The notes below the pieces were generated by a model that worked only from the letters and a program-made list of their open reading frames with translations, had not been told where the DNA came from and did not search any database. From Crossiella cryophila (GTDB lineage: Bacteria > Actinomycetota > Actinomycetes > Mycobacteriales > Pseudonocardiaceae), in assembly GCF_014204915.1 (NCBI RefSeq), contig NZ_JACHMH010000001.1, forward strand, positions 1,860,001 to 1,924,000: DNA of 64,000 nucleotides, in the 5' to 3' direction. Shown in pieces: positions 42,458-59,729 of this stretch (positions are counted from its first letter, which is position 1; every line of letters starts with the position of its first letter). A program made the translations under genes and the position numbers.

Positions 42458-42623
42458 CCTTGCGCCACAACTTTGGGCTGCTTGGCGTAGGAGAGCAGGT
42501 GCCGGCCGGATAGGGCGGTCGTCAGCTGTGGCTCGGCGGCGAGCGCCAGCAGCAAACTAGCCAACCCGAACGGCCTGAAAGGTTGTCGCCAGCCTGAGCG
42601 TGAGACAGAACAGCGGTGCATGG

Positions 42624-44480
42624 TCAAGGCTTCCAGAAGGCCCGCCACGCCGGTCCTGCAGGCGGTACCGGTGTGGCACCAGCCGGCGGTGGCAGCGTGC
42701 CGAACAGCTTGTTGCGATCCAGCTCTGTGTTGAACCGCTCGCAGGCCACCTCGCTGGTGTACAGACAAGTCGCACACGCACCGCCGAATGATCGGCGACA
42801 TGGCGGATCGAATACACAGCGAGGGTCAGCGTCGAGTTCGGTGAGGGCGGCGTCTAGGTCATAACGGAACACATGTTCGATGCCTCCCAAGGTGAATTCG
42901 TTGCGAGAGTTGGCGTAAATCAGGAACGCCGCTGCCGACGGGAACAGGTACTCGGACAGAGAGTCGATGTGCAGGCCACAGCGGACGGCCAGCGCCTTCA
43001 TGAACCGGTGTGACATCGAGTGAACGAGCCCCAGGACCGCCGCCGTCTGCGGAGCCTCCGGCGGGTTGAAGATGTCGGATACTGGTGGGAGGTTCCGCAA
43101 CAACCAGGCATATGCGGCTTGTGTGTCACCGACGTGCGGGTCTTCTGAAACGCCCGAATCCGCTAACCATGAGATGACCGCCCGCGGGTCGATGCGGACT
43201 AGCAGCGCCTCAGTAGTGGCTTTCCGCCCGTACATCGGGAACTTGTCCGAACGGCCGTTGTGGAAGAAGTTGAAGGTGGTTGGAACAGGTCCACGTCGCG
43301 TCGACTGCTCGTGGGTGGGCGACAGCCGGGTAAAACCGGCGACGATGTGTGCGACCGGTAGTTTCTGAAGCAGGGTAACTTCGGCTAGCTGGTATTTCTC
43401 CAACAGTTCCTGGTAGCGGCGATAGGTAGGCATTAGATCCGGCGTAGGGGAGAACTTGATCAGGTCTGTGATGGTGACCGGTTCGGCCACGCGGGCGCGG
43501 GCTAGTGCCAGAGCTTCGTCACCGGCAGCCTCGAGCCGGTCTTCGTCCAATTCAAGCTCGTCCACGGCCTCGCGCCACCCGCCGGCTGCCTCCGTCTGCT
43601 GCCGTTGGTGCGCCACCAGCTGCTCAAAAAGCGGGTTGTCCATACTGATGTTGAGCGCGGCAGCGACCGCCTTCACCCGGGCTTCAGGTTCGCCGGCGGC
43701 GACACTGGTGCTGGCAGCCTCGCTCAGCGCGGCCAGGCCGGGCTTGACCACGCCGATGAGTTGGCCCACTGCGGCGGCGCGGACATCGGTGGTGGCCAAC
43801 GTGCCGTATGTGGTTCGGTCCGGCGGGTTGAGCACTGTCAGGTGTTGTGGGTAGTGCGCTGAGGTTTGCGCGACTCGGTCCACCCGTGCCCAGCCATTCC
43901 TGCATTGCGAGCAGAATCGCTGCAGTCTGGTTTCGGAGCGTCGGCCGCATCGTGAACAGCTCCAGAACCACTGCGCAACCTGGAACTGGGTGGTGTTTCG
44001 CAGCTGCATAGGTGCCCGGCAGTCACGTGCGCATCTCGGCGGGGCCAGTTCCCGTAGCAATCCACAGTTATGCATCTCGACCCACTGAAACTGCAGCAGC
44101 TGCCCGCAACCCCTGGGGCAGCGCGGAACAGGGTCTCCGGGGTGGGTGACATCGAAATGGTCGCATTCGCGGCAATGGAAGGTGTTGGGGAACCGTTCGG
44201 CGGAGACGCCGTCGACAGTGACGAGTTCGTACATGCCGCGGTTGACAATGTCGAGCTGAGTGAAGCCCGGCTCGCTACCCACGCTGCGCGGCCTGGTGAA
44301 GGGACGAATAAGGCGGCGCAGCTGCGGTGCCACCCACTCCTCGGGAACGTTCAGCGGGTTCGGATGGGCCGGTGCGTGGCCCAGGACCGTGACCTTGTGG
44401 TGCCCCCATTGGTAAGGCTGCTGCGGTAGGTGGCTCCACAGCACCTGGGTGGTCGAGCGGTTGAGTTCATCAGTTGACAT
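42624..44480 (-). CDS. DrmB-like DUF1998 protein
   Basis: A 618-aa protein with two Cys-rich zinc motifs in the first half (CRECDHF...CPRGCG; CSRCGRRSE...CSQCRNGW) and the DUF1998-type C-terminus: GLVHSMSHRFMKALAVRCGL then LGGIEHVFRYDL and CRRSFGGACATCLYTSEVACERFN. This is the DrmB pattern; in DISARM it forms the DrmAB complex with the helicase and stimulates it on DNA. It follows drmA directly (11-base gap from ATG 44480 with GAGGA upstream; a GTG at 44495 overlapping the drmA stop is the alternative). Last gene of the operon. Confidence 0.8.
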   Translation of the reverse strand: MSTDELNRSTTQVLWSHLPQQPYQWGHHKVTVLGHAPAHPNPLNVPEEWVAPQLRRLIRPFTRPRSVGSEPGFTQLDIVNRGMYELVTVDGVSAERFPNTFHCRECDHFDVTHPGDPVPRCPRGCGQLLQFQWVEMHNCGLLRELAPPRCARDCRAPMQLRNTTQFQVAQWFWSCSRCGRRSETRLQRFCSQCRNGWARVDRVAQTSAHYPQHLTVLNPPDRTTYGTLATTDVRAAAVGQLIGVVKPGLAALSEAASTSVAAGEPEARVKAVAAALNISMDNPLFEQLVAHQRQQTEAAGGWREAVDELELDEDRLEAAGDEALALARARVAEPVTITDLIKFSPTPDLMPTYRRYQELLEKYQLAEVTLLQKLPVAHIVAGFTRLSPTHEQSTRRGPVPTTFNFFHNGRSDKFPMYGRKATTEALLVRIDPRAVISWLADSGVSEDPHVGDTQAAYAWLLRNLPPVSDIFNPPEAPQTAAVLGLVHSMSHRFMKALAVRCGLHIDSLSEYLFPSAAAFLIYANSRNEFTLGGIEHVFRYDLDAALTELDADPRCVFDPPCRRSFGGACATCLYTSEVACERFNTELDRNKLFGTLPPPAGATPVPPAGPAWRAFWKP

Positions 44481-44491
44481 GACAGCGGTCC

Positions 44492-47400
44492 TCACACGTT
44501 CCCGATAATGGTGATGGGCGCTTCGATATCCCGCAGCGAGCGCGGCACTGGTGGGTGGAGCAGATCGGCGGTCCGACGTACTCCGCCCGTGCTGACCTGC
44601 AGGCGGATGAGGGTGCTGTCGACGAATTCCTCGACCGTGTCCCGATGCCGTTCGTGATACGGATTGCCCGGCTGCAGTCCCAGGCCTGCCTGTAGCTCAG
44701 CGATCAGCCGGCTGCGGTCGAGAAACCCCGCCGTGACTGCATCGCGGACCTGGTCAGCGTTTGCGAGGGACGGGCGGGTACGTCCAGAGGCCATCCACAG
44801 CCGGTCGTGGACCTGCAGAAGCCGGGCCATCAGCGCACCAGGAAGTGCACGCTGCAGTACTGGCAGGGACTCCCGGTTGACCGGCACCTTACTAACCAGC
44901 CGGTCGAGGTAGCTGACCCACTTGGCATACCAGCGGAACACTGACGTGTCTCGATCTCGGGATGGATTGAACACGTGCACCACGAGTCCGGGATGGGTGC
45001 GGCCGACGCGGGCGGTCGCCTGGATGATCTCGGCAGCTTGGATGGGGGTGCCCATGAGCACCATGATTCCTAGCCGGGGGGAGTCGAAGCCGTGCCCAAT
45101 GGCCTTCGTGGCAGCGACCAGGCGGGTCCGTCGCGCCGGGTCAGGCGGCGGGTTGTTCAGCCGGGACACTGCCTCCCGGATAGCCGCGATGTCCTGGCTG
45201 CCTGAGATGACCGCCTGGCTCTCCGCGCTGACCAGCAGGTCGCCGACCCGGTCATCGGTGATGTAGGCCGCCATGTCTTCATTGCGCAGGCAGTAGCCCA
45301 GCAATACCTCGTAGTCCTCGGCGACCGCGCGCCTGACCACCTCTACTACTTCCGGGTCGTCGGCCTGCAGACCGGCTGCTCTGGCTGCCGCCGCCGGGTC
45401 CGCGAGCGCGTCGCGTAGCCATTCGTTGTGGATACGGGTGACGTCCGCTCCGGCGGTGACCATCGTGGTGCCCCGCGGGCAGATACCCAAGTAGCGGCGC
45501 AGTGGATCGTCGTGGTGGACGCTGGAGAAGAAGTTCTGCTCACTTCCAGGGCCCGGCTCGGGGAAACGTCGCGCGGGTCGCTGGTACAGGTGCTGGACCT
45601 GATTGTCGTAGCCCTCAATCGTGCCGGTGGCTGCGAGGATATGAAGGGGACGATTCTCCAGGTCTTCACCGATGTGCTGAACGACGGTCTCGTACATTCC
45701 GTCGAGTGCCCCCAGGCTCTCGTCCAGCAGGTGCAACTCATCGGTGATTTCGCAACGTAGATGCCCGAAACCGTTAGAGACGGGGACCCTGGGCTCGGTG
45801 CAGTCGTGGACGCTGCAGCGAGCGGGGTTGACTGTCCAGCCGTGTTTGGCACAGCGGGAGACTGCCTGACCAAAGATGATCTTAAAGGAGTTGCTATGGG
45901 CAACCTGGGCCAGTTTGTCCACCGTGCCGACGAGTACTGAGGGCGCGTGCCGGTAGATGTCGTCATCAACCACCCATAGCGGGAGCGGACCGTACATCCG
46001 GCATGAGCGGTTGGTGCACCGGTGCTGCATGGTCCAGCTGTCCTCGTTGAAAGCAACCCTGAGCCTCGTTCCGGTACCACGCGGGTCGCAGACGGGGCAG
46101 TGCTCGAGAACACGGCATCGGGCCGCCTCAGCTGGATTCGTCGGGTCGATGCCCCTCGCCCATGGAGTGTTCGGCGGCCAGTAGCGATTAGGGGTGGTGG
46201 TGCTGCCGACGAAGTAGCCGATGCCGAAGGGGTCGCCTTCGCGCAGGTCTTCCGTGTCGCGACGGATCAGCTCGGCGACGAAGACCGCGACGGCGAAACG
46301 CTCGGTCTGCTGGGCCGCCAGTAGTCGTAGCGGGAAACGGGCCCAGACGGTGACACCGTGCCGATCCCCGCAGATCCGGGCATAGAAGAGATGGACAATT
46401 GCGACGGCTGTGAAGCCCTCTGTCTTGCCGCCCCCGGGTGGCACAGTGAGGATTTGTACGGCAGGGTCGATCTCTGGATCAGCGACCGCGGGCAGGCAGC
46501 CGATAATCCAGGCGATCTGGAAAGGGAACCAGTCGGTGAATCCCTTGTCCGCAGACAGCTGCTGCATGGCTTGGTTCATCAGTACGAACGCTCGCCGCAG
46601 CTGCCCATTGGTGGCGAGTACAGCGAGTCCGTTGCGTAGCCACTGCACTTCGTTGTGGGCGGCCTTCGCCTCTAGTTCCGCGGCCCTGCGGGCTTCAGGC
46701 GACCAGCCGAGCGTGGCCTGACGATCGTTGAGAGCCTGCTGCGACCAGTTTTTGTCGACCCAGGCGGCATGCTTGTCAAGCAAAGCAGTTGCCGCCGCGA
46801 CTGGGGCGTCGATGAAGGCTGTGAAGGAGGTGTCCGCTCCACCCCCTCCCGGGTGCGCCCGGCCAGTGGTTGACACCGCGCCGTAGCTGGTGCGCAAGGT
46901 CGTTTCGCCGGGGCCAGGACCAGGCATTACCTGTACGGGGCAGGCCTGCCCGAACGCCTCGACCGTGCGGTCATAGCGGTGAGAACGGACAACCTGCTCC
47001 AGGGTGTAAACGTCCAGTGGCGCGCGAGCGGTGATGGTCAGTCGGACTTCGTACAGACGGGTGTCCAGGTGGTTGCGGTCGAATCGGACCTGCCCCTTGT
47101 GGTCCGCGAATTGAGCTGCGTCAGCAGGGGAAGTGTTGACCACGGTGACCATCAGGTCCCGGCCGCGCTCGGTGCCGGTGACGTCGACATCAATTGCCGC
47201 TGACAGGGTCGGCGCAATGGCGTGGTCAGCCGGAAGAAGGTTGGAGCTGGCGTAGGCATCCCAGGATGCGGCGTCGACGAAGTCATCGTCGCGAGGCAAC
47301 CTGCCGTAGCCTCGGCGGGCCCGGTACAGCTGGGTTCCTGTGGCGGCACGGACAGCGGAGTCGATCGCGGTGGCGATCTCCATGGCGCCGAAGCGATAGC

Positions 47401-47905
47401 TGGCGATATCCGGACTGACGGTCGCCCGCAGGCGCACGGGTCCGACTGGGACCTTGAGCCACACCGTGGCCAACTGGCGCCCCAGCTGACTGCAGCTGCC
47501 TCTGGTCGTGCGGATCGAGGAGGCCTTGCTAACCGGTGCAGCATTCGTGAACGTCTGCTGTTCCCCGACCGTTGGGTGCAGCGGCACGTATACCGCGAAG
47601 GCCAGTTCAGCTTCGAGGGGGACTGCGGAGCTGCCACGCACAAGAAACGAAAAGCCCTCGGCGGCGGGAACCAGTCGATCACCGCCGAGGTTGCGACTCC
47701 GGTCGGCGGATAGCTGTGGCTCGCTGGCTAGCTGGCCCAGCCAGAGTTTCGCCTGCTGATTGTTCTGCAGTCTGGTGAAGGGTTGAATGTCCTCGCCAGC
47801 GGCTACCCGGAGAGTACGGTTTTGCAATTGTTCCAGCAGTGAATCGCGGACTTGTGCTGGTGTGGGCTTGGTGTTAGTGGAGGATGTGGTGTGCATGGGC
47901 GACAT
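44492..47905 (-). CDS. DrmA-like DISARM helicase
   Basis: An 1137-aa superfamily-2 helicase of the DrmA type. After a ~480-residue N-terminal region come WIIGCLPAVADPEIDPAVQI and Walker A VPPGGGKTEGF (about residue 490), a Cys quartet (CPVC...CTNRSC), LPLWVVDDDIYRHAPSVLVGT, motif II DELHLLDES (about 720), and in the C-terminal domain GHGFDSPRLGIMVLMGTPIQ and QATARVGRTHPGLVV (about 965). Those blocks are DrmA hallmarks. DrmA unwinds or loads on DNA with DrmB. ATG at 47905 has AAGGA nine bases upstream; an earlier in-frame start at 47956 lacks one. Confidence 0.82.
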   Translation of the reverse strand: MSPMHTTSSTNTKPTPAQVRDSLLEQLQNRTLRVAAGEDIQPFTRLQNNQQAKLWLGQLASEPQLSADRSRNLGGDRLVPAAEGFSFLVRGSSAVPLEAELAFAVYVPLHPTVGEQQTFTNAAPVSKASSIRTTRGSCSQLGRQLATVWLKVPVGPVRLRATVSPDIASYRFGAMEIATAIDSAVRAATGTQLYRARRGYGRLPRDDDFVDAASWDAYASSNLLPADHAIAPTLSAAIDVDVTGTERGRDLMVTVVNTSPADAAQFADHKGQVRFDRNHLDTRLYEVRLTITARAPLDVYTLEQVVRSHRYDRTVEAFGQACPVQVMPGPGPGETTLRTSYGAVSTTGRAHPGGGGADTSFTAFIDAPVAAATALLDKHAAWVDKNWSQQALNDRQATLGWSPEARRAAELEAKAAHNEVQWLRNGLAVLATNGQLRRAFVLMNQAMQQLSADKGFTDWFPFQIAWIIGCLPAVADPEIDPAVQILTVPPGGGKTEGFTAVAIVHLFYARICGDRHGVTVWARFPLRLLAAQQTERFAVAVFVAELIRRDTEDLREGDPFGIGYFVGSTTTPNRYWPPNTPWARGIDPTNPAEAARCRVLEHCPVCDPRGTGTRLRVAFNEDSWTMQHRCTNRSCRMYGPLPLWVVDDDIYRHAPSVLVGTVDKLAQVAHSNSFKIIFGQAVSRCAKHGWTVNPARCSVHDCTEPRVPVSNGFGHLRCEITDELHLLDESLGALDGMYETVVQHIGEDLENRPLHILAATGTIEGYDNQVQHLYQRPARRFPEPGPGSEQNFFSSVHHDDPLRRYLGICPRGTTMVTAGADVTRIHNEWLRDALADPAAAARAAGLQADDPEVVEVVRRAVAEDYEVLLGYCLRNEDMAAYITDDRVGDLLVSAESQAVISGSQDIAAIREAVSRLNNPPPDPARRTRLVAATKAIGHGFDSPRLGIMVLMGTPIQAAEIIQATARVGRTHPGLVVHVFNPSRDRDTSVFRWYAKWVSYLDRLVSKVPVNRESLPVLQRALPGALMARLLQVHDRLWMASGRTRPSLANADQVRDAVTAGFLDRSRLIAELQAGLGLQPGNPYHERHRDTVEEFVDSTLIRLQVSTGGVRRTADLLHPPVPRSLRDIEAPITIIGNV

Positions 47906-47986
47906 GGGCGGAATTCCTTCTGGGTGTAGCGGTGGCCAATTACGCAGTGCGGTCAACTCGGTGCAGGTGGCGATCTGTCAACAAAT

Positions 47987-50425
47987 TCAAGACCGCAAGC
48001 TCGGTGTGGTTTTGGTGTTACTGGATGGCATCGTGGTGGCGGAACGTCCGTCGGCCTCTGCCAGGATTGCCACGATTGTCTCGGAGCTGGAGAGAACTCC
48101 GAGCGTCGCAGCTGGTGCCATGACGAGGTCTCCCGCCACGTCGGCGACCTGGTGCAGGGTCACAGCATCGAGCAGATCGGCAACGTGCACTCGGAGCTGA
48201 GGGTCAACAAGCGCGTCGTTGGTTTTCAGGCGGACGCCGTTGATTTGTGCGGACAGCCAGCGGCCGACGGCCTGATGAATGGTGCGCAGGTAGGTGAAGG
48301 CATCGCCTATAGCGCTGGAATTGTGCGCGAGTTCGGAGTCGCCAACAGCGACGGCGAAGCGGTGGACGTCGGCTGCACGCAGTGGGACGGTGTTGTGCTT
48401 GAACCAGTTCCGAATCGTCTGTTCGGTGGTCAGCTGGGTTGGGTTGAGGCCGGACTGCATTCGGGAGAGGACCTCTTGGTAGGTCAGACCTAGGTCCCGG
48501 GCTGCGTCGACGCGGATGTGCCACAACTTCTCAAAGAAGGTTAGCAGGTGGTACTCGGGGTTGATGCTGGCGAGCACGTTGATGACCGAGTTGAACAGGT
48601 CTCGCCGTGCGGTGGTGTCGACCAGTGCAACGACATCACCAGGAACCAATGCCTTCGCCGCCACCCTGCGGGTCTCGGTGCCGATACTGCGGTAGACGGG
48701 ATCATTAGGTGCGAGCAGTAGGCCACAGTTGCCGGTGAATATGATGTGCAAGGCACTAACCTGCTCATCGGGGCCGACGTCAGTGTCGCGGCCCGGAGGG
48801 ATTAGGTCGGCGTTGTCAGTTGCCCAGCCACGAGCCTGCGTGAGCATGGTCTGGATATCGAAAGTGAATGGCTCCCACGGTGAGCCGTCTTCGATAGCAG
48901 GCTCTACCGGTGATTGGTCGCGCCAGATGAGTACTTGCTCCGGAGCATCGACGTGTTTGTCAAGGGGTACTCGCAATTTCGGCGCGCTGATCGCAGTGGT
49001 CTCCTGACGCAGCGCGGTGAGCGCTTGCAGTGTTTGCCGCGCCTGCCGAGCGGCGCGACTGGCCTCCCAGACACCAGCTGTGGCGATGACGACCTGCCTG
49101 GCCCCAGGTGCAGCAACCATGCTCGCGAACGATCTGGGCACCGGCCCGGTTAGAAGCATTGAGTCGACAGGCAGGTTGGTTACCCTGCCGTACAGCACCT
49201 CCCGCAGGCTGACGACGCGTACCCGGGTGTGCCAGCGGAACGGTGTGCCGGTGTGCTCCTCCAGGGCGTCGACGAGCGCTTGCGTTGCGGCCCGGTTGCG
49301 GGTGACAAGCAGGCCACTGCAGTCCGTCTCAGTCAGATCGACAAGCCATCGCTGTACCAGTGGCAATTTCGGTGCATCGGCGGCGCTGCACAGCAAGTGA
49401 TCGAAGGAGTCGGTGAGTGCCAGCCACGCCTTGCGAGTAGCGCCGGTGCGGTTCCGCGCAATGGCTCGGGCATGTGCCGGGGAGTCGGCCAGCCGTGTCA
49501 TGTACGGACTGCGAGGCACGTGCCGGTCGTGCTGGTCCGGGCTGGTTGCTGACAGGGCGAAGCTGTGGAACGTACTCCAGGCCCAGCCCAGCGCAGCTGC
49601 GGTGGCCACATTCTCGTTGTCTTCCGCGGTGAGCGACCTCAGGGCATTCCAGGCAACGCGCATGGCCTCGTCCAGTGGGGCGTCGCACGCCGGAACCAGT
49701 ACCTGCCGGTTGGCAGTGCCGGCAGCAGCCAATAGCTCTGGAGATGCAGCGACCGCGTGCTTGCCGTCGTGGGTTTGACCGGGCAGACTGGTCGCGAGCC
49801 GGGCCATAGTTGGCGGGTCGAATGCCCACACCACGCCACCCGCATCGCGCACCTTGGCCAGTGCCTCGTCGAATGGGTTGTCGGTGATGTACACCAGCTC
49901 TGGCCGGGAGCGCAGCAATCGACTGAGATCAATAGGTCGGCCGCCAGTACCGTCGATAACCAGGCTGCCACCGAAGTCGGGAACGCGCTGAGGATCCCCG
50001 GTGAGGATCATTCGGCCCCCGCCGGATCCCGGATAAGGTTCTCCCACGGGAACGATATCGCCGTCAGCGGTGATTCGAGCCCGTGGGATCACTGATACCA
50101 GAGAAGAGTCGCGGACATACAACCGGTCGTAGAGGGTTCGCTGAGAAAGCCTGGCAGAGACGACCGTTGCGGAGACGGCAACGCTCCAACTACGGACGAT
50201 CTCCGCTGATAGTGAGGCGGCGCCCAGCACTATCGGCGTGTCGGCTGCCGGCAGTGGCAGGACCAGTGCGATCGGTCTGCGGTCTGCTGCTGCGGCGTCG
50301 ACCGCCGTAAGCAACTCCTTGTCGAATAGCGTTGGATTGATGCGGCGCAGGCCAGCGTCGGTGCGCAGTCGTAGGTCGCCGCGACACACGACCTGCGACA
50401 GTCCGGGGAGTTCCGGTGCGGTCAT
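47987..50425 (-). CDS. DrmE-like DISARM protein
   Basis: An 812-aa protein directly upstream of the drmA-like gene, 82 bp after the MBL gene stop. The C-terminal third resembles DrmE of class 2 DISARM: ALVPGDVVALVDTTARRDLF, EKLWHIRVDAARDLGLTYQE and a helix-turn-helix-like TTEQTIRNWFKHNTVPLRAADV. The central part contains LLVTRNRAATQALVDALEEH and similar strands suggesting a degenerate nucleotide-binding fold, with no Walker A lysine. DrmE's role is unknown. The identification rests on position, length and these blocks, so it is moderate. ATG at 50425 is used; GTG at 50434 is possible. Confidence 0.6.
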   Translation of the reverse strand: MTAPELPGLSQVVCRGDLRLRTDAGLRRINPTLFDKELLTAVDAAAADRRPIALVLPLPAADTPIVLGAASLSAEIVRSWSVAVSATVVSARLSQRTLYDRLYVRDSSLVSVIPRARITADGDIVPVGEPYPGSGGGRMILTGDPQRVPDFGGSLVIDGTGGRPIDLSRLLRSRPELVYITDNPFDEALAKVRDAGGVVWAFDPPTMARLATSLPGQTHDGKHAVAASPELLAAAGTANRQVLVPACDAPLDEAMRVAWNALRSLTAEDNENVATAAALGWAWSTFHSFALSATSPDQHDRHVPRSPYMTRLADSPAHARAIARNRTGATRKAWLALTDSFDHLLCSAADAPKLPLVQRWLVDLTETDCSGLLVTRNRAATQALVDALEEHTGTPFRWHTRVRVVSLREVLYGRVTNLPVDSMLLTGPVPRSFASMVAAPGARQVVIATAGVWEASRAARQARQTLQALTALRQETTAISAPKLRVPLDKHVDAPEQVLIWRDQSPVEPAIEDGSPWEPFTFDIQTMLTQARGWATDNADLIPPGRDTDVGPDEQVSALHIIFTGNCGLLLAPNDPVYRSIGTETRRVAAKALVPGDVVALVDTTARRDLFNSVINVLASINPEYHLLTFFEKLWHIRVDAARDLGLTYQEVLSRMQSGLNPTQLTTEQTIRNWFKHNTVPLRAADVHRFAVAVGDSELAHNSSAIGDAFTYLRTIHQAVGRWLSAQINGVRLKTNDALVDPQLRVHVADLLDAVTLHQVADVAGDLVMAPAATLGVLSSSETIVAILAEADGRSATTMPSSNTKTTPSLRS

Positions 50426-50507
50426 CCTCAGCACCTCTGTTCAGACAGTAATACCAAGAACAGGAATTAGGACTGGTTTCGGAATAGAATATGGAAAGAT
50501 CCGCTGT

Positions 50508-52697
50508 TCATTGAGCTGAGGACCAGTGCCCGGTGGGTGCTATCGCCTGGCCTCGCATCGACAGCCGTGTGGCGAACGTCGCTTGGTTGTGACGCTCGCC
50601 ATGCACCAGCATGACCTCGTGAGCACCGATGTCGGCGCTGATGGCGACCAGTTCGTCAGCGTTGGCATGCGCGCCCAGCCCGTAACGGTTGACCTGGGCC
50701 CGAACTGGGACCCGGATCAGTTCTCCCTCGAAGTTGGGCAGCTCGAACTCGCCGCCGCCGGTGCGAGCTAGCTCAAGCAATCGTGCGCCGGGGGAGTCCT
50801 CATCCTGATAACCGACGACCATCAGTCCGGCTGCTGGGTCGGGCAGCAGCGCCTTTGCCCAGGCGACTGCAGGTCCGGCGGTGAGCATCCCCGAGGTTGC
50901 GATCACCACTCCGCTGCGTAGGTTGCCGATTGCGTCACGAGTGCCACCCGGCGGTACCGCCCGCACTCGCGGGCCGAAGATGCGCAACGGTCCCCCATCC
51001 GGCGCAGGCTGCTGCTCGTAGACGGAGGCCACACTGCGGGCCAGGCCGTCGATGAGCACATCCACCTCAGGCAGACCCTCTGCGAGGGTGAGGGCCACTT
51101 CCTGTGCGCGACCAAGGGCAAATGCGGGAATGAGCACCCGGCCGCCGGAGCTGGTCACCGTCGCCACATCGCTGATCAGTTGCGCTGCCTCCGCCGCTCG
51201 TGGCGGCATTCGCCTGGAGTTGGCGTAGGTCGACTCCAACAGCAGCAGGTCCGCGCCACGGGCGGCGTCAGGCACCTCGATGCCGCCGACGGTTCGCTGA
51301 CCGGGCCTGGACACATCGCCGGAAACGACGACACGCTGGTCACCGGCGTGAACAATCACCCCAGCAGCGCCGACGATGTGCCCGGCTTGGAACAGCTCGA
51401 TGTCCACGGTGCCGAGCCGGTGCCGCCGACCGAACGGCAACGGCCGCATGCGGTCGAGTGCGTGCCGCACGTCATCCTTGCCGTAAGGGACGGGCGGACC
51501 GGTCCCGTCCGCCTCGACGCTTCTGCGCGCTAGCACCTTTGACGAGTCGAACCACATCGTGCTCAGCAGAGCCGCGGTGGCGTCGGTGACCAGTACTGGC
51601 GTGTCTGGACGCCGGATCAACACCGCTGGCACCCAGCCGGCATGGTCGTTGTGGGCGTGTGTGACGACGACACCGTGCAGTGGTCCGTCGAAGGCCCGCT
51701 CGATTCCCGGCGGAGCAAGCTCGGAGAACGTGACCGCGCCTGGCCGGGTGCCGGCATCGATCAGTAGACGTGTGTCGCCTGCAGTGATCAACACACATGA
51801 GCCGCCGATCTCGGTGCCGCCGCCGAGCACCTCAACTCGAAGCTCCCGCCCACGCACCTGCGCCACGGGGCGTGGCGGGGTGATGAACGCACGGAGCAGG
51901 GCTGGCAACCACATCGCTGTGGCTCCAGCGATGTCGTCGGGTAGACCAGCGATTCGGGCTGCTGCGGTCACACGTTCGGGGTCGACCGCCTGTGCTGGAG
52001 GAGGTCGTCCGGGATCAACCCTTGTTGGTTCACCCGGGCCAACACCGCGACTGTCGTGCAGACGCCCCTTGATCTGTGGCATGAGCGCGGAAGCCAGGGC
52101 CGCCGCGGCTCGCACTGGATCAGCCGCGTCGAGCCGGGCAGCATTCAACCGCGTCTCCGCTACCTCGGCGCGCCCAGTGACGGCAGCCAACTCGCTGGCG
52201 AGCTCCACCAACTCGGCTCGGAGTTCTGCGGCCTCTGCTTCGGCCTGCCTTGCCTGGACCTGAGCGCGATCGCGGGCCGCACGCACTTCCTTCAGTCGCC
52301 GCGCGGCGCGCTCCTCCTCTCGCTGCGCCACGGGCGCCCGCTCGGACCGCTCGACTTCTCGTGCCGCCCGCCTGGCAGCTCTGCGAGCGGAACTGAGCAG
52401 GCCGCGGACACTGGCCACGCCACGGGATGCAGCGGCGGTGTCCGGTGCCAGCAGACATGCGGCCAACTCACCGCCATCTGACTGCTCAGGGCACGGCTGG
52501 CCGTATCGGGCGGCCACCTCGGCTCTCAGCCCGGCTGACTGCTCGAGAAGCGCCAACAGCGTTGCCACGCCTTGTGATTCGGTCACCACCCGGTCGGGGT
52601 CCAACGGCTCAGTTGACCGTTCGGCCACTACGACGGCTGCGCTGCGCAGGACCTCCCGCACTGCGCCAGGCAGCACTGCGGCCGCATTGCCGCTCAT
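50508..52697 (-). CDS. Beta-CASP metallo-beta-lactamase nuclease with coiled-coil N-terminus
   Basis: A 729-aa protein. Residues 1-270 are helical and highly charged (REVERSERAPVAQREEE, then an AEAAELRAELVELASELAAV heptad-like run). The catalytic part holds the MBL signature VVVTHAHNDHAGW (residues about 343-356, H-x-H-x-D-H), FQAGHIVGAAG, VVVSGDVSRPG, then beta-CASP motifs LLLESTYANS and MLVHGERHNQATFATRL. Such CPSF73/RNase J-like enzymes cleave RNA, some also DNA. Its ATG overlaps the giant ATPase stop (ATGA), so they are made together. In DISARM the nuclease slot is normally filled by the PLD protein DrmC. Confidence 0.85.
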   Translation of the reverse strand: MSGNAAAVLPGAVREVLRSAAVVVAERSTEPLDPDRVVTESQGVATLLALLEQSAGLRAEVAARYGQPCPEQSDGGELAACLLAPDTAAASRGVASVRGLLSSARRAARRAAREVERSERAPVAQREEERAARRLKEVRAARDRAQVQARQAEAEAAELRAELVELASELAAVTGRAEVAETRLNAARLDAADPVRAAAALASALMPQIKGRLHDSRGVGPGEPTRVDPGRPPPAQAVDPERVTAAARIAGLPDDIAGATAMWLPALLRAFITPPRPVAQVRGRELRVEVLGGGTEIGGSCVLITAGDTRLLIDAGTRPGAVTFSELAPPGIERAFDGPLHGVVVTHAHNDHAGWVPAVLIRRPDTPVLVTDATAALLSTMWFDSSKVLARRSVEADGTGPPVPYGKDDVRHALDRMRPLPFGRRHRLGTVDIELFQAGHIVGAAGVIVHAGDQRVVVSGDVSRPGQRTVGGIEVPDAARGADLLLLESTYANSRRMPPRAAEAAQLISDVATVTSSGGRVLIPAFALGRAQEVALTLAEGLPEVDVLIDGLARSVASVYEQQPAPDGGPLRIFGPRVRAVPPGGTRDAIGNLRSGVVIATSGMLTAGPAVAWAKALLPDPAAGLMVVGYQDEDSPGARLLELARTGGGEFELPNFEGELIRVPVRAQVNRYGLGAHANADELVAISADIGAHEVMLVHGERHNQATFATRLSMRGQAIAPTGHWSSAQ

Positions 52698-55600
52698 ACC
52701 TCGGCCCCAACTGGCGCCCCGGTGACGAGCGCGGCCAACGTCAGCTCCGGACGCAGCCGGCCTGTGCTGGTGACAGTGAGGCAACCGAGCGTGGCCAGCA
52801 CCGCGATGACATCGTCGAGTGAGCCGAAACCGGCATCGACCGCCATGGCGGTCAGATCAACGCGGTCATCAAGTTCGAGCAACTCAACGAGTTCGTGCGG
52901 ATCCTCCCCACTGGCTCCGACAAGAGCCACCACGGAGTGGAAGACCTGGGCAAGCATCGTTGTCTCTGGCCCGAGCCCGGCACGGGCCGGAAGCTTGTGT
53001 CCTTCTCGTCCGGACAGCCAGGCCGTGAGGTCTCCCAACAGTTTGCCGCTGCCAATGGCAGCTCCCGCGGATTCCGTAAGTCTTTTTGCCTGGGTGATCG
53101 CCTGCGGCCATCCGCCGGTCACCGCCAGCAGTCGGGCACGAGACTCGTCGTCGCGAAACGGCAGGTTGTCCTCGTCGCACCACATCCGCAGGCCGGGCTC
53201 GTCTACACGGATCAGGTCGACCCTGGAAGCCCGGGTGATCCAGGCGGAGGCATTGGCCGGAGACACGATCACTGCCACAGTGACGTCGAGCCAGGCAGCT
53301 GCTACCGCCTCCTCGGCAGTGGCCAGGAGCGCAGTCAGCGCTACCGGTGTCAGTGCCAATGCGTCGACTAGCAGCAGGGTGGTGTTGGCGGCGGCGCGCG
53401 CCACCGCGGCCCGAACCCCGTCAGGGGTCACCGTGCGAGCACGGTTCACTGTGGTCAGGCGTGCTCCCTCGGCGGCTGCGGCCTCGACCGCGGTTAGCAC
53501 CGCGTCCACTCCCAGAGCCAAGGAACCAGTTACCGTCAACACTTCGCGGCGAGCATCGAAGAGCCGCCCGAGCTGCCGCTCAGTCAGTGGAGACCTGGCG
53601 TGCCCCACCCGGCGCCGGTAGGAACCAGCATCCGAAGGTGACGGCACCACCAGACGTTCCGAGGCGGTGTAGAGGGTTTCGAGTACCTCCTCCTCCGTAC
53701 CCAGCAACCGCAGCACTGTGGGTGTGCGCAGCCGGTAGCTGCCGCCATCGATGGCCAGGACACCGAGATCAACGCACTCAGCGACCAGGCCGCGGAAGTC
53801 ATCGGCACTGACACCGCTGAATCCGGCCGGCCAATGCAGCCGCGCGATCTCGGACAGTTCACTCAGCCCGAGGCTCGTGTCGATGCCACGTTCGTGCGCA
53901 GCCTCGGCGACCGCGTACGCGATCACCAGGTAGCGGTGGTCAAGGTTGAGGGTCAGCACGTACTTCTCGCGGAACGCCGCGCGTAGGTCGGCGTCGGCGA
54001 ACACCTCGTCGACATCAGCGTCGGTAATGCGCTGCGGCGGCCCGTCAGCCGGGACCGAACGGGAGGCAAGGTGCTTGACCAGAGCCTCGCCAAACAGCTG
54101 GAGCAAAGCCGGCATGTTGTTCGCCATCGCCAGGATCCGCGCCGGCAGCGCGATCGGTTCGGCGAAGGTGAACCCCAGCGCGGCCAGCGGCTCGGTGAGC
54201 AGATCGTGGGCATGCTGCGGGCGCAGCGGCCCCACACTGATCGGGCGGCCCAGGTGGGACAGTGGCTGATTGGGCAGGGACTCGAAGCGGGCAGTGCGGT
54301 GCAGGCCGGCGAAAACGACCTTGACCCGGCGACTGGTGTCCAACATCAGTCGCCGACACCAGTCGACGTGGGTAAAGCGAACACCGGCGGCGTCGGCGTC
54401 GAGAAACGCGTCAGCCTCGTCGAGCAGGATGAGCAGCGCCCGGGTCGGGTCGTCATCCAGCCACCGCAGCACCGAGTCGTAGACGACCTGCGCGATGTCG
54501 ACATCCTTGGCCAGCACGGTTTCCGTCACGATGCCGATGCGGGCCAGGTGGGGCCACAGCGCGTCCCACAGTCGTTCTGGGCGCCCGTCGCCACCCACAG
54601 TGAACACACTGGTCAATACGGCGTGCCGACGGGGACCGGAAGCCTCGAAGCGACGCGCGGCGACGCGCAGCAGTGCGGACTTACCCAGCTGCCGGCCACC
54701 GGAAACGAACGATGGGCCGTTGAGGTCCACGACGGCGGCCAGCTCATCGGTACGTCCGTAGAACATCTCCGGTGGGGTATCGCCTGGCGTGTCGCGGTAC
54801 GGGCTCGCCGCAGTAAATGGCAGCGCAGTCGCCGCGAACGTGGACCGCCGTGGCTCGGGCTGGCACACCAGGTAGGCCAGGGCGGCTGTGTCCAGGACGA
54901 GCAGCGGAGGAGTAGGCCGACCACGAGCGGCGTTGGCGATCGCTCGTCGGTCAGTCGGGGAGAGCGCTCCGCTCAGCCACAGCGCCAGCACGGTGTGATC
55001 TGGAGTTTCGCCGCTCATCCACTCGATGAGCGTCGTTGGCGTGGGCGCGCTGCGGACGAGTAGCACCCGCAGGGTGGCGCCGTCCGGGCTCATCGCCGAT
55101 CCCAGCGTCGGGGTGAGCGCCTGCCCGGTGCCAGTGACCCCGGACAGGCGAATCCATTGCCGGCCGGTCTGTCTGGTGCTGGACTGATCCATCTTTGCGC
55201 CGGTGAACTCCAGGCCGGCTTGGGCGAGCACCGCCTGCAAGGCGGTGGTGATGTCGGCCTTGCGTGCGCCGGCTCCTTCGTGTCCGGCAAGTGCCTTCCA
55301 ACAGCCCAGCGCGCGACGGCCAGCGTCACAACGGGCCTGTGAGAGGTCGGCAAGATTGAGCCCGGCAGCATCCAGAGACGCCACACTGACGTTGGCTGGC
55401 CCGCGGGAAAAGGCTGCGTGCAGCTCGTCGAGCAGGTTGGGCCGCTCGATGGCCAGCTGAGGCACAGCGGGAAAGTACTTTTCCAGATGGTCCACACCCC
55501 GGCTGGCAGCCGGCAGCGCACCGCCGGTCAGCGCTGTCTCCAGGTACTCCTCGGCGCTGGCGACCTGACCGTCACGAGTCAGCCCAGTCAGTACCTCGGC

Positions 55601-58600
55601 AGCCTCGGCCACGGCCTGGTTGCTGCGAGCTCGTTCCTCGATGCGGGCCAGTGTGGCCGTGATCTTGTTATCGACAAGCGCGTTGAGGTCGGCAGTGATT
55701 TCGGCGACTGTGGCGCGGATGCGGCCGAAGTCCCGTCTCGCGGGGTCAGCGAGTGCCTCGGCACGAGCGGCCAGGGCTGCCCACGGCTGGTCGTCGAGGG
55801 TTCCAGCAAGTCGCCGTGTGTCGATGAGCCTGGCCATCGCGGTGACCTCGTCTGCCACGTCCGCGGCCTGCTCAGCGATGTCGCTGCCGCGGCGGCGTTC
55901 CAGCGCGGCAGCGGAGGTCGGGTCGGAGGTCCGCACGCCGGTGATCAGAGTGGCGGTCAGGTCGTGATCTCCACGCTCAGCGCGATGCGTGTACATGTCG
56001 ACCGGGTCGGCAGGATCGGTGCCGGCAACTGCCAGCAGCGCCGGCACGTGTTCAGCCGAGAGGCCACCGGCGGGCAGCAGCGTGTTTGCCTCCAGCGCCA
56101 GTGGCGTGGCCAATAGTTCGGCGTGAGCGGCGAATGCCACCGGCAGTTCGTCGGAATCGGGAGCCGCGCCGTCGCAGATGGCGAATGCGTCGGCGAGCAG
56201 CTGCCCCGCCGCCTCAACCGCCGCTGTGGTGTCTGGGTCCTTGCCCGACTGGGCGGCCAGCTCAGCTACCGCCTGCTCACGCACCCCGGCGATGCGGTGT
56301 CGCATTGTGGTCAATGGTCCGGCCTGCCACGCGCCCGTAGCGACGGTCACCTGTCTCTCGGTGGTGCGTTCGGTCAGCTCAGCCCAGCGGGCGGCCAACT
56401 CGATTGCCTCCTCCCAGCGAGTCAGGAGGGTGCTGCGGGCACCAGCGATGATGCGGTTGGACCGGTTACGCCGCTGCGCGGCGAACGTGCTGTCGATAGC
56501 CTTGTGCGCCCTGCCGCGCAAAGCCACGACCTTGTCGCGGACCGACGTCAGGGTGTCGGGGTTGTTGGTCGCGACCAGAGCGAGCAGCGTGCCGAGTTCC
56601 CCCTCGGGGCTCATCCAAGCCTGGTACACGCCGTTGGCCGGGATGTACTTGATTGTGCGGCGTGTGGCACCGGACAGCAGCCCCGCAGCGTCGCTAGCTG
56701 CTTCAGCAGCTGCGTTCTCCGCGGCTGCCAGCGTGCCGACTGCGTCCGCGGCTTCGGCCAGCACGACAATCCCGGCCCGGCTGGCGTCGGCCAGCGCGGT
56801 GAGCGATTCGGTGAGCGCCGGTTGCTCGCTGACGCACGGGAGGAGTTCCAGTAGCACGGTTGCCGGGCCCGCGGACGGTGCCAGCAACGCGATTCGCCCG
56901 GCTGCGGTGAGCGCGACGAGCTGCCCAGCGCGGTCCTCGCCAAGTGCTTCCCGGCTGACCACCGGGGCGAGTTCGGCAAACGCGGTCGCGAGGCGACCCG
57001 TGGGACTGGTCAGCGCCGCGGCGTAGGCGGCCAAGCGACGGGCGGCGACGCTCGGTGCCGATGCACCACTGGCCTCCAGCAGATCAGCGGCAAGACCGAA
57101 CCGACCCGCGGGCAGCAGAGCAGCGGCACCGACTCTGTCCACGGTGCCGGTGCTTTCCACCTCGGTGGGGCGTGAAGGTGCGAAACCGGTTGGCGTTGCC
57201 ACGCCGGCGTCTTCCAGCGTGGTGTCATGGACTGCTGACGCCGTCGAACGCCGTCTGGGGTTGCTGACCGCAGCCAAAGTGGCACCAGCGCCTGCTTTGA
57301 GCAGAGCGTCGAGGTCAGCAAGTTCGGCGTCTCCGCTGTTGGTCGAGGGCACCAGGCCCGAACCGGGGTCCTCAGTCGGAAGGTCGCTGGCTCCTTCCGC
57401 CAGTGTTGCCATTTCAGGGCCAGTTCCATCGAGGACACCGGGCCCAGTCGACTGCACCGACGGCTCGGGTGTCGCAACGGGCTCTGATGGTTCGGCGGGA
57501 GGTACCCGCTCCACGCCTGACTCCGGGACCTCAACGACTGGCTCGGTTGTCGATTCCTGATTCGGGACAGTGACCGCACCGTAGGCAATAGCGGCGATGA
57601 GCGGCCCCGCAGTTGGCCAGGCAACCTGCGCAGCGGTCTGCGTCTCGCTGAGCACGGCGAAGTCGACTGTCGCACCGCCCCGGGCAGCTTCAGTGAGTTC
57701 GAACAGCGCCCACAGCGCGGCCAGATGTCCCCGCGGTGCTGCTGGGGCGCTGATTGCGGCAGTGGCTGACTCGCGCACCTCGGCGACAGCGCCGTCAATG
57801 CCTTGCGGTCCCTCGATCCCAGCCAAACGACGAAGCCAGATTATGTCGGCCGCTGCCTGTGCGCGCTGGGTGAGCGTTTCGACGGCGCTCAGCAGAGCAT
57901 CCCGAGTGCCGGGAATCGCCTCTCCTAGCACGGAGTGCAGATCATCCAGGACGGTCAAACCGGTTTCGGCGTGCTTGGCTATCCGGGCAACGTCTCCGGC
58001 AGCGGGGAATCGCCCTTCTTTGAGCGCATTTGCAACGGCATCGGCGGCAGCACACGCCGCGTCCCACTCTGTGAGCAGAGCCTGGGCACGTTGCGCAGGA
58101 GATGACTGGTCGGCTGAGGCGAGAACAGCGCTCGCTGGATTCTCCTCCACCGGAGAATCAACCTCCTGGGCGAGGACGGCCGCGTCGTCAGGGCCATTGG
58201 GCAGCTCGTCGAGTAGGTCAGCGAGGTCTTCGCCAGAGATGTTGGTATTGGTCACTCCGAGCGCGGCGAGTCGCGCCGGCTGTACAAGTTCACTCAGCGG
58301 GGCGGCAGGGATCGGCGGCAGCTCGGGATAGGACTCGCTCAGGTGTTGGTATGTGGCGCGGGCGGAGTCATGCTCTCGGGCCAGCACGGCGAGTGCCGCT
58401 GCAGCAGCAGCGGTGTCCTTGGTAATCGCGACGGTCAGTCCAGCAGTGAGCAGCCGGGGGCTCAGGTCGCGCACCGCAGCTTCGAGGCTGCCCGCTAGAG
58501 CACGGTTGTCCGCGTAGACGTTGAGCGCGAGTCGAGGGTCGGAGCCCAAGAGCGCGGTCCACTGCCCAGGGTCGGCGCCAGCGTCGAGAGCCACACTGAC

Positions 58601-58948
58601 TGGTGCCGTGATATTTCCCAGGAGGTCGGAGTGTGCTGCTGGGTGGTCGGCGCGTAGGCGGGCCAGCATCTGGGCAGCCATACCGCGATTTACGGTTGCC
58701 ACCACGCGCAGCCCAAGCACGCTGAGCACGTACTGGCGGTGGCGCGGCTGCATGGCACGAAGAACCCTGAGGACGTCGTCCGCAGTCACCTGTTCCAGCG
58801 CCTCGGTAGCGATCGCATCGAGGTCGCAGAGCTCCGCGATCTCGCGACCTGACGGCCACTGAGTTGGCCTGGTTGGCAGAGGTTCGTGGTGGTGGGCGCG
58901 ACCGTTGCAACGGCAACGGCCGGGCTTGCGTCGTCGGGGGTTCGCCAT
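52694..58948 (-). CDS. Giant 2,084-aa ATPase of the defence operon
   Basis: First gene of the operon. N-terminus RRRKPGRCRCNGRAHHHEP is basic and Cys/His rich (possible zinc). Residues 50-460 and 600-1390 are Ala-rich helical arrays with no motif I know; 460-550 is a Pro/Glu/Thr linker. A STAND/MoxR-unlike AAA module follows: MFYGRTDELAAVVDLNG, Walker A SFVSGGRQLGKSALL (Lys about 1421), Walker B ALLILLDEADAFLD (about 1509), then a winged helix LGLSELSEIARLHW and a C-terminal alpha/beta region. This looks like a sensor/scaffold NTPase. ATG 58948 has GAAGG seven bases upstream; frame is open 56 codons further with no site. Confidence 0.75.
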   Translation of the reverse strand: MANPRRRKPGRCRCNGRAHHHEPLPTRPTQWPSGREIAELCDLDAIATEALEQVTADDVLRVLRAMQPRHRQYVLSVLGLRVVATVNRGMAAQMLARLRADHPAAHSDLLGNITAPVSVALDAGADPGQWTALLGSDPRLALNVYADNRALAGSLEAAVRDLSPRLLTAGLTVAITKDTAAAAAALAVLAREHDSARATYQHLSESYPELPPIPAAPLSELVQPARLAALGVTNTNISGEDLADLLDELPNGPDDAAVLAQEVDSPVEENPASAVLASADQSSPAQRAQALLTEWDAACAAADAVANALKEGRFPAAGDVARIAKHAETGLTVLDDLHSVLGEAIPGTRDALLSAVETLTQRAQAAADIIWLRRLAGIEGPQGIDGAVAEVRESATAAISAPAAPRGHLAALWALFELTEAARGGATVDFAVLSETQTAAQVAWPTAGPLIAAIAYGAVTVPNQESTTEPVVEVPESGVERVPPAEPSEPVATPEPSVQSTGPGVLDGTGPEMATLAEGASDLPTEDPGSGLVPSTNSGDAELADLDALLKAGAGATLAAVSNPRRRSTASAVHDTTLEDAGVATPTGFAPSRPTEVESTGTVDRVGAAALLPAGRFGLAADLLEASGASAPSVAARRLAAYAAALTSPTGRLATAFAELAPVVSREALGEDRAGQLVALTAAGRIALLAPSAGPATVLLELLPCVSEQPALTESLTALADASRAGIVVLAEAADAVGTLAAAENAAAEAASDAAGLLSGATRRTIKYIPANGVYQAWMSPEGELGTLLALVATNNPDTLTSVRDKVVALRGRAHKAIDSTFAAQRRNRSNRIIAGARSTLLTRWEEAIELAARWAELTERTTERQVTVATGAWQAGPLTTMRHRIAGVREQAVAELAAQSGKDPDTTAAVEAAGQLLADAFAICDGAAPDSDELPVAFAAHAELLATPLALEANTLLPAGGLSAEHVPALLAVAGTDPADPVDMYTHRAERGDHDLTATLITGVRTSDPTSAAALERRRGSDIAEQAADVADEVTAMARLIDTRRLAGTLDDQPWAALAARAEALADPARRDFGRIRATVAEITADLNALVDNKITATLARIEERARSNQAVAEAAEVLTGLTRDGQVASAEEYLETALTGGALPAASRGVDHLEKYFPAVPQLAIERPNLLDELHAAFSRGPANVSVASLDAAGLNLADLSQARCDAGRRALGCWKALAGHEGAGARKADITTALQAVLAQAGLEFTGAKMDQSSTRQTGRQWIRLSGVTGTGQALTPTLGSAMSPDGATLRVLLVRSAPTPTTLIEWMSGETPDHTVLALWLSGALSPTDRRAIANAARGRPTPPLLVLDTAALAYLVCQPEPRRSTFAATALPFTAASPYRDTPGDTPPEMFYGRTDELAAVVDLNGPSFVSGGRQLGKSALLRVAARRFEASGPRRHAVLTSVFTVGGDGRPERLWDALWPHLARIGIVTETVLAKDVDIAQVVYDSVLRWLDDDPTRALLILLDEADAFLDADAAGVRFTHVDWCRRLMLDTSRRVKVVFAGLHRTARFESLPNQPLSHLGRPISVGPLRPQHAHDLLTEPLAALGFTFAEPIALPARILAMANNMPALLQLFGEALVKHLASRSVPADGPPQRITDADVDEVFADADLRAAFREKYVLTLNLDHRYLVIAYAVAEAAHERGIDTSLGLSELSEIARLHWPAGFSGVSADDFRGLVAECVDLGVLAIDGGSYRLRTPTVLRLLGTEEEVLETLYTASERLVVPSPSDAGSYRRRVGHARSPLTERQLGRLFDARREVLTVTGSLALGVDAVLTAVEAAAAEGARLTTVNRARTVTPDGVRAAVARAAANTTLLLVDALALTPVALTALLATAEEAVAAAWLDVTVAVIVSPANASAWITRASRVDLIRVDEPGLRMWCDEDNLPFRDDESRARLLAVTGGWPQAITQAKRLTESAGAAIGSGKLLGDLTAWLSGREGHKLPARAGLGPETTMLAQVFHSVVALVGASGEDPHELVELLELDDRVDLTAMAVDAGFGSLDDVIAVLATLGCLTVTSTGRLRPELTLAALVTGAPVGAEV

Positions 58949-59669
58949 GATGAAGCCTTCGGGTCTCCGTGGATGAGTGTTACTGCACGTAGTCAGTTCT
59001 GGACACAACGTATCTTTGTTGAGATCTTTTTGAACCCATGCTGCGACTACTTCGGGGCTAGCTTGCGTAGCGATTGAGCTGACCTCTGGCGCAACATAGG
59101 GCTGGAGCAGCGACAAACGTGCCCCGTCGGCATCCCGGAATCGACAATTTTGGTGCGCGTTTTGTCTATAGAAGTCCGGGTGGCAGGTGGCGTCAGGTGC
59201 ATCCGCTTGTTGAGAAGTTGCGATCGTGGCCTGCGGTCTGCTATCGCTCCGGCATGCTGCTCCGGCTGCCGCTTACGGTGCAGGAAGGCGGTACTCGGAT
59301 ATGTAGATTCGCTACCTGTATCTTTCAGGGATTGTGCTTCGGGTGTGGCGTCCGGCGTCAGTCGATCCACGTGGCGACGACAGGTGAAAGCAGTCAATGC
59401 TCGATTCGGTCAGTAGTCCGCAGTAGGCGATGTGGCAGTCTGTCGAGCAAGTCCGGGGCGGAACTTCGTAGTCGTCAAGGTGATCCGGTCGGTTTTCGAC
59501 CCGCTGTTGTTGTATTAGCTGGGTGCGATCGGGTAATTCCTGATGGTGCGAACCATGATGGCGAAGCAGTGCCGTTGAATGTGCAGTGGTTGACTTGATT
59601 AACGTCTAAGGATATTTGCGAAGAGTGCGAAGCAAGTGGCATGACGACATTCTTGCAAGTCTGCTGCAT
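58949..59669. other. Long AT-richer region upstream of the defence operon; no supported gene
   Basis: About 720 bp of noticeably lower GC than the rest. It must hold the operon promoter; a possible minus-strand -35 (TTGTGT, near 59003) with a 17-base spacer and CAGTAA is visible but weak. Short plus-strand open frames (59119-59598, 59150-59416) have Arg/Ser/Cys-rich, non-protein-like composition and no ribosome-binding site, and I do not call them. Confidence 0.4.
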
Positions 59670-59713: not shown

Positions 59714-59729
59714 ATATGAACAGTGAAAG

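Follow-up and report, generated by a model that had tools for sequence, protein, structure and literature searches.

A DISARM class-2-like operon of Crossiella cryophila headed by a giant ATPase and a probable RNase

The window analyzed here, a 64,000-bp stretch of the 10-Mb genome of the soil-type bacterium Crossiella cryophila (Pseudonocardiaceae; contig NZ_JACHMH010000001.1, positions 1,860,001 to 1,924,000), carries five genes that form one leftward operon, in which a giant ATPase, a metallo-β-lactamase (MBL) nuclease and relatives of the DISARM proteins DrmE, DrmA and DrmB are transcribed in that order. Class 2 DISARM comprises drmE, drmA, drmB, drmC and drmMII, and is defined by its methyltransferase. 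Coordinates are those of the window, and handles beginning with L and G stand for loci and genomes, respectively. The genes, with the domains and motifs discussed below, are as follows.

52694-58948, minus strand: giant ATPase, 2,084 residues (longest open reading frame [ORF] 52694-59116, 2,140 residues)
53717-54769, minus strand: conserved core of the ATPase, spanning ORF residues ~1450-1800 (Walker A, GGRQLGKS; Walker B, LLDEAD)
53087-53554, minus strand: putative second, degenerate ATPase-like domain without GKS/T, from model secondary structure and sequence
50508-52700, minus strand: β-CASP MBL nuclease (ORF 50508-52784, likely ATG at 52700)
51642-51659, minus strand: HxHxDH metal-binding motif of the MBL protein, residues 376-381
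47987-50434, minus strand: DrmE-like protein, with DrmE_C at ~48242-48754
44492-47956, minus strand: DrmA, a YprA-family SF2 helicase (likely ATG at 47905)
42624-44495, minus strand: DrmB (DUF1998), from PADLOC, a PDB profile match and conserved Cys/His

An earlier note on this DNA had described five leftward ORFs, with a 2,084-residue ATPase and an MBL protein first, joined by overlaps or short gaps of 82, 81 and 11 bp, and all of them were located as claimed. With the starts chosen here the spacing is reproduced: the ATPase and MBL genes overlap by 7 bp, two gaps measure 82 and 81 bp, and DrmB is preceded either by a 4-bp overlap or by an 11-bp gap. DNA similarity of the ATPase gene to its nearest full-operon relative (L089) begins at 58947, a single base away from the ATG (58948), and in three other relatives it begins 50-90 bp further inside the gene; a fifth relative (L091) gave no DNA match in this comparison. 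Since similarity never begins upstream of this ATG, the length of 2,084 residues is supported. All five genes are under purifying selection, with pN of 0.16-0.29 and pS of 0.61-0.70 between the window and Nocardia sp. NRRL S-836. The five-gene observation is thus confirmed as real, and its order is beyond chance because it recurs in three other genomes and all five genes are under such selection. Promoter and terminator scans gave scores below shuffled means.

Profile searches bore out the assignment of three of the proteins to DrmA, DrmB and DrmE types. DrmA is identified as a DISARM DrmA by its PADLOC match (4.5e-89), and the only PDB entry that it matches at E ≤ 0.001 is Serratia DrmA (7s9v_A, 2.6e-51). 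All nine members of its subtype, a clade described below, retain GGGK[TS]E and DELHLLD as helicase motifs. DrmB is likewise a DISARM DrmB of the DUF1998 type, with a PADLOC match at 4.8e-47, the DrmB chain of the same structure (7s9v_B, 1.8e-7) as the only PDB match at E ≤ 0.01, and 17 Cys/His positions that are invariant in nine of nine subtype members. The third protein matches Pfam DrmE_C at 43.1 bits against a cut-off of 27, which places it with the DrmE of class 2 DISARM, and a profile of seven relatives aligns with a DrmE-type profile of three other DISARM-like loci over 607 columns (hhalign 99.3%, E 9.1e-21); of these three loci, the two covered by the Pfam scan score below its cut-off. 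PADLOC at E ≤ 0.001 has no match for the DrmE-like protein, the MBL protein or the ATPase, and a PDB profile search with DrmE found none. Matches to NCBIfam fall below cut-off for DrmA (324 bits against 950), DrmB (77 against 240) and DrmE (30 against 80). Judged by its profile similarities, the third protein is a divergent DrmE. Its predicted model is weak (mean predicted local distance difference test score [pLDDT] 65.6, from seven sequences), and a Foldseek match to RIG-I/LGP2-like proteins (E 5e-6, TM 0.2-0.3) is a lead only. No Walker A motif was seen on reading the sequence of its first domain and the weak model resembles RIG-I-type SF2 helicases, so DrmE is possibly a helicase-derived adaptor with an SF2-like fold. 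As for class 1 DISARM, PADLOC found no DrmD or DrmMI among the five proteins.

The MBL protein matches Pfam Lactamase_B, Beta-Casp and RMMBL, all above cut-off, with a further N-terminal region of ~300 residues outside the nuclease domains. Among solved structures its best relative is the RNase TTHA0252 (1.4e-36), followed by aCPSF1/FttA, CPSF73, Integrator 11 and Cas14 of type VII CRISPR. The catalytic residues are intact: D343, H376, H378, D380, H381, H469, D490, E517 and H706 are conserved in 16 of 16 sequences, including a distant one from L129. The protein therefore displays the MBL motifs, β-CASP insert, RMMBL domain and motif-C histidine that characterize β-CASP RNases, and its sequence makes it a probable RNase of the TTHA0252/CPSF73/aCPSF1 type acting on RNA. 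The MBL gene directly follows that of the ATPase in each of the 13 fetched loci that carry an MBL of the close type, with a 4-bp overlap in 11.

The giant ATPase belongs to no family in the collections searched. It has no PADLOC match, as stated above, and no NCBIfam match at E ≤ 0.1; the whole protein gives only chance-level Pfam matches (E 0.03-0.06), its C-terminal half matches nothing in Pfam or PADLOC at E ≤ 0.01, and a PDB profile search yielded weak helical matches only. Extending the PADLOC scan to 41 ATPase sequences added four marginal matches to three families at E ≤ 0.01 (E 0.004-0.01), and Pfam AAA_22 is found in 35 of the 41 relatives, the window member not being one of them. An AlphaFold model of residues 1080-2140, built from the 41-sequence alignment, reached a pLDDT of 88.5, and with Foldseek it matches the archaeal AAA+ protein SSO1545 (6e-7), Orc1/Cdc6 (1.7e-6), Avs3 (1.1e-4) and CED-4 (1.1e-3), by which the ATPase is predicted to be a P-loop NTPase of the STAND/ORC type. 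Its catalytic motifs are conserved as well: across 61 ATPase sequences, the window included, G1474 is present in 100%, K1479 in 98%, and D1566 and E1567 in 100%. The model and the sequence place a second P-loop-like ATPase domain, lacking a Walker A motif, after this AAA domain. It recalls the inactive STAND domains that passages of PMC12839542 report in BREX proteins.

A single profile scan of genome contigs with the ATPase alignment returned 64 loci from many phyla. The full order ATPase-MBL-DrmE-DrmA-DrmB, which the earlier note's reading led one to expect elsewhere, is present in three genomes besides the window: Nocardia sp. NRRL S-836 (L089; also G923/L184), Goekera (L090) and Geodermatophilus (L092). 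In L098, L104 (Micromonospora) and L187/G793, ATPase-MBL-DrmA-DrmB is preceded upstream by a divergently oriented DrmE, and Nocardioides (L095/L214) has a distant version with an ATPase-MBL pair, a methyltransferase and DrmE-, DrmA- and DrmB-like genes. Neighboring genes were predicted by a home-made caller based on codon usage. Since these loci had been found via the ATPase (ASCERTAINMENT), the search was repeated from DrmA, MBL and DrmE. DrmA of this subtype (at least 49% identity) occurs in 5 of 297 family genomes, and besides the window two of the four carry ATPase-MBL in cis (G923 and G793); the other two are G855 and G322, which are near-identical. The MBL search of 100 family genomes added one pair, in G324 (45% identity), and fragments in G326; all other matches reached at most 44% identity and 131 bits, most of them spanning about 100 residues. 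With three candidates scored per genome, DrmE was found in 1 of 296 class genomes, namely the window's own.

The trees of the two modules are congruent. Among 35 DrmA proteins the subtype forms one clade of nine (100/100), which splits into the window with L089, L090 and L092 on one side and L185, L186, L187, L098 and L104 on the other. The ATPase tree, of 65 rows and made by a quick method, gave long-branch warnings and is used only for the MBL clade and its inner groupings; it places all 15 MBL-type ATPases on one branch (SH-aLRT 99). Within that branch the seven Drm-linked loci group as (L090,L092), the window with L089 (support 89) and (L187,(L098,L104)), as in the DrmA tree, and L094, where the ATPase-MBL pair is solo, lies beside L089. 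Two of its labels, L129 and L115, read HEPN, though L129 has a distant MBL gene upstream and L115 a clustered helicase. Judged from these sequence trees, the agreement is consistent with joint inheritance followed by loss of either module; two separate joinings of the ATPase-MBL and Drm modules are the alternative.

The gene beside the ATPase is exchangeable. Over the 64 loci the partner is a HEPN-type protein in 26, a β-CASP MBL in 13, an SNF2 helicase in 9 and a protein of unknown type, here called C10, in 5; none was recognized in 11, several of which lie at contig ends and one of which (L152) is only a 75-residue piece of the ATPase. The RNase-type partners are of unrelated folds. HEPN-type partners, of ~300-430 residues, follow the ATPase and carry a C-terminal R-x4-H; 24 of the 26 cluster by sequence, with the motif in every one, and L143 and L146 were added by position and motif. 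The clustered genes overlap the ATPase gene or lie within 80 bp of it in 23 of 24 cases, the remaining one (L131) being 850 bp away. PADLOC 2.0.0 has no profile for the one HEPN-type and the one C10 partner scanned. The nine SNF2 loci are all cyanobacterial, with the helicase before the ATPase in seven and after it in two, and the one such partner that was scanned (L110) carries a phospholipase D (PLD) domain. The C10 protein is encoded upstream of the ATPase in five actinobacterial loci. Because the ATPase is joined to interchangeable, mostly RNase-type proteins, it may be a sensor with an effector slot. The family has a third multi-gene arrangement in L105, L106 and L114, where actinobacterial relatives of the ATPase follow genes for a helicase of ~1,600-2,000 residues (DinG- and DpdF-like in L106) and for the C10 protein. 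In two Nocardiopsis (L107 and L130), ATPase and C10 genes adjoin an opposite-strand operon with a DrmA and a DrmB-like match.

The earlier note had further proposed that the ATPase and the MBL protein replace the usual DISARM partners, and here the outcome is divided: the pair is a recurrent extra partner in two DrmA lineages and three queries revealed no intact methyltransferase in cis at seven loci, but DrmC is kept in three relatives, the pair also occurs solo, and DrmE-DrmA-DrmB-DrmC also occurs without it. Searches with tblastn place DrmC, a PLD protein, after DrmB in L211, L212 and L213 (Goekera, Geodermatophilus and Micromonospora); for L211 this result was used because the gene caller misread the locus. 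DrmC is the best PADLOC match in L211 and L212, ZacB comes first and DrmC second in L104/L213, and L215 contains a 29-residue match to the start of DrmC. The window itself has no DrmC, three DrmC queries giving no significant tblastn match there (best E 1.4), and tblastn found none near the L184 or L187 copies. To judge from these sequences, the window, NRRL S-836 and G793 seem to have lost DrmC secondarily. The idea that the MBL protein generally replaces DrmC was rejected, as the two co-occur in Goekera, Geodermatophilus and Micromonospora.

As for the methyltransferase, three tblastn queries, which a divergent enzyme could escape, found none beside the window, L089, L090, L092, L098 or L187. 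In the window they had no match at 1e-3, and as there is no methyltransferase among the five proteins either, the operon lacks DrmMII. Ten further neighbor genes of five relatives include no methyltransferase, five of them having no Pfam match at all. The window genome does encode C5-methyltransferase domains away from the operon, at 2.16 Mb. A 93-residue frame beside DrmE in L104 (L104:5097-5378) contains a 57-residue match to a type IIG methyltransferase (E 1.2e-7), and this sequence is possibly a remnant of a methyltransferase that the system has lost. The C5 methyltransferase beside L185/L186 scores 316 bits with MTase_II versus 112 bits with DrmMII, and looks like part of a separate restriction-modification cluster. 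A mutual exclusion between methyltransferase and ATPase-MBL was not upheld, as L095 has both and L104 a remnant.

The operon lies in a segment that differs from its surroundings. Between 42 and 60 kb, all nine 2-kb bins have a G+C content of 63-69%; elsewhere it is 70-75% in 19 of 23 bins and 65-70% in the other 4. Homology to a genome of the same genus (G760, L192) ends at 42459 and restarts at 59729, and G760 has 77 bp where the window has 17.3 kb. The two features concerned are the following.

42460-59728, no strand given: inserted segment, 17.3 kb, comprising the five-gene operon and its upstream region
59729-59812, minus strand: tRNA-Leu (gag); the right boundary of the insertion coincides with its 3' end

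To the eye, the 77 bp of G760 include a stretch resembling the 3' end of a tRNA, perhaps an old attachment site. No integrase, nor any gene besides the five, was called in the 17.3-kb segment by the codon-usage gene caller, and no direct repeat of at least 12 bp joins its two ends. Four other genomes of the genus were searched for DrmA at E ≤ 1e-60 and gave no match. A transporter gene beyond the tRNA (59839-60752) is largely absent from G760 too, so both flanks of the tRNA differ. Viral contigs hold no relatives of DrmE, the ATPase or DrmA, phage records no relative of the ATPase, and plasmids no DrmE. MBL relatives at 30-36% identity are found on 10 plasmid records and distant ATPase relatives on 24, four of which were examined.

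We read this locus, with slightly more doubt than confidence, as a composite defense operon that combines a DISARM class-2-like core with a sensor-ATPase/RNase effector module. DrmE-DrmA-DrmB would recognize invading DNA by its structure and move along it. The STAND/ORC-type ATPase would serve as sensor or switch, assembling or changing state on a signal from the Drm core or the phage, and once activated would license the co-translated MBL protein to cut RNA; this would stop the infected cell, probably in an abortive manner. With no methyltransferase in cis, self-protection would depend either on the structure of the substrate or on an effector kept off until triggered. Phage defense, cooperation of the modules, an RNA target and an abortive outcome are all four what we infer from these data. 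Passages of PMC9142583 describe Serratia DrmAB as autoinhibited, loading on single-stranded or 5'-overhang DNA and needing ATP hydrolysis, with DrmC outside the core.

Several observations weigh against this composite reading. Of the 13 fetched loci whose MBL is of the close type, 7 have the ATPase-MBL pair alone (L091, L093, L094, L096, L097, L099 and L101; the L093 contig ends 2.2 kb after MBL), and searching those seven genomes for DrmA at E ≤ 1e-20 gave nothing in four and only distant matches, of at most 181 bits, in three. Conversely, G855 (L185) and G322 (L186) carry DrmE-DrmA-DrmB-DrmC of the same subtype without the pair; the L185 contig starts 3.7 kb before DrmE, L186 covers 8.6 kb upstream with no pair, and the top MBL match in G322 is 28.7 bits among the best 10 of 93 candidates scored. 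The operon is consequently a union of two separable modules, the ATPase-MBL pair being an unnamed family in its own right, and since each module persists alone their cooperation is not required. In G326, MBL fragments at L035:1226-2026 (66% identity) and L038:11616-12005 (51-53%), apparently decayed copies, have no ATPase in those stretches. An RNA substrate is suggested by family resemblance, and some β-CASP enzymes act on DNA. Finally, the HEPN-type assignment draws on the R-x4-H motif together with Pfam HEPN_Swt1 matches, which in three of the four partners scanned had an E of about 0.02 and stayed below cut-off.

A wider view of the ATPase is possible, and we hold it more loosely: it would be the sensor of an undescribed ATPase-effector immune family spanning phyla and having a single effector slot. 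HEPN RNases would occupy this slot in most of the phyla sampled, SNF2/PLD helicases in cyanobacteria and, on one occasion in Actinomycetota, a β-CASP RNase. Its joining to a DISARM core in Actinomycetota would yield a five-protein system and let DNA recognition by DrmAB/DrmE trigger RNA destruction, not methylation-guided restriction.

That DrmE-DrmA-DrmB and ATPase-RNase are two independent systems, side by side and co-transcribed without cooperating, strikes us as somewhat unlikely. The solo occurrences described above speak for it, as do the other defense genes that adjoin certain ATPase loci, among them Wadjet JetC (L097) and, in L187, DUF3323/DUF2399 and SbcC-type proteins; against this, the genes are co-linear with short gaps in four genomes, the DrmA and ATPase trees agree in two lineages, and the window segment has no further gene called in it. 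We consider it rather improbable that this is ordinary class 2 DISARM with accessory genes, in which host nucleases and methyltransferases serve DrmA, DrmB and DrmE and ATPase-MBL is a backup suicide effector. The DrmC of three relatives, the methyltransferase domains at 2.16 Mb, the L104 remnant and the L095 methyltransferase would suit such an arrangement, as would passages of PMC9142583 that call DrmC non-essential and propose recruitment of another PLD nuclease by DrmAB; the failure to find an intact methyltransferase in cis at seven close loci, and the position of ATPase-MBL at the head of the operon, before DrmE, would not. Very improbable is a cluster of ATPase-RNase and helicase for RNA turnover or DNA repair: the β-CASP family is mostly engaged in housekeeping RNA processing, and the YprA superfamily, to which DrmA belongs, has repair branches (PMC12458937), but the patchy spread of DrmA and DrmE, the insertion at a tRNA gene and the defense-type homology of DrmA, DrmB and DrmE all speak against it.

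Compared with known systems, the composite operon resembles class 2 DISARM in its DrmE-DrmA-DrmB order, its match to Serratia DrmAB (7s9v) and the DrmC that comes next in three relatives; the window differs in having neither a methyltransferase in cis nor DrmC, in starting with ATPase and MBL genes and in a DrmA that forms its own clade. ARMADA, BRIGADE, TALON, Druantia and Dpd share the YprA helicase superfamily with DrmA, and many uncharacterized DISARM-like classes are noted, in passages of PMC12458937, the main text of which contains "DrmE," "metallo" and "CASP" 0 times and "MBL" twice, within accession numbers in the passage shown. Cas14 of type VII CRISPR and aCPSF1/TTHA0252 have the same MBL/β-CASP/RMMBL architecture and active site as the window protein, which differs from them by about 300 extra N-terminal residues and by its place directly after a giant ATPase. 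Avs, BREX BrxC and DUF499/Hma share the ORC/Cdc6-STAND fold of the window ATPase, and the HEPN-DUF499 fusion likewise ties an ATPase to an RNase effector (PMC3710099 and PMC12839542); in contrast to these, the window ATPase has no Pfam, PADLOC or NCBIfam family, and its effector is a separate gene, exchanged between lineages. Among the open PMC matches listed, none was by title or abstract start a paper on this ATPase or on a DISARM core with ATPase-MBL, the subscription literature lying mostly outside this scope.

How DISARM destroys its target after DrmAB loading is an open question, and it becomes testable through an operon in which a sensor ATPase and a probable RNase are hard-wired to DrmE, DrmA and DrmB. 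The locus suggests that DISARM-type recognition may be read out as RNA cleavage and that DISARM-like defense systems can exchange their weapon. The ATPase family, with its exchangeable neighbors, would be a new family of immune sensors reaching from cyanobacteria to actinomycetes.

Some further loci deserve mention. On the conjugative plasmid pS15H of Bradyrhizobium elkanii (L222), positions 1746-11048 encode an ATPase homologue of ~3,100 residues annotated as an RNaseH-domain protein; a different AAA ATPase comes next and a gene for an HNH endonuclease later, perhaps another type of effector. The window genome has a second DrmA/DrmB-type locus (G000:C1:2772500-2792000, L083), with a DrmA of 1,059 residues that is distantly placed in the DrmA tree, a DrmB of 618 residues and a TmtA-like protein of 1,588 residues. 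The sister group of the DrmA subtype (L069/L070 of G095, L189, L190, L197 and L198, and partly L196) has DrmB and often a helicase gene; G095 also encodes an MzaA-like sigma-factor protein, a DrmD-type helicase, a type IIG restriction-methyltransferase and a 2,112-residue MZB helicase, in what looks like another undescribed DISARM-like layout.

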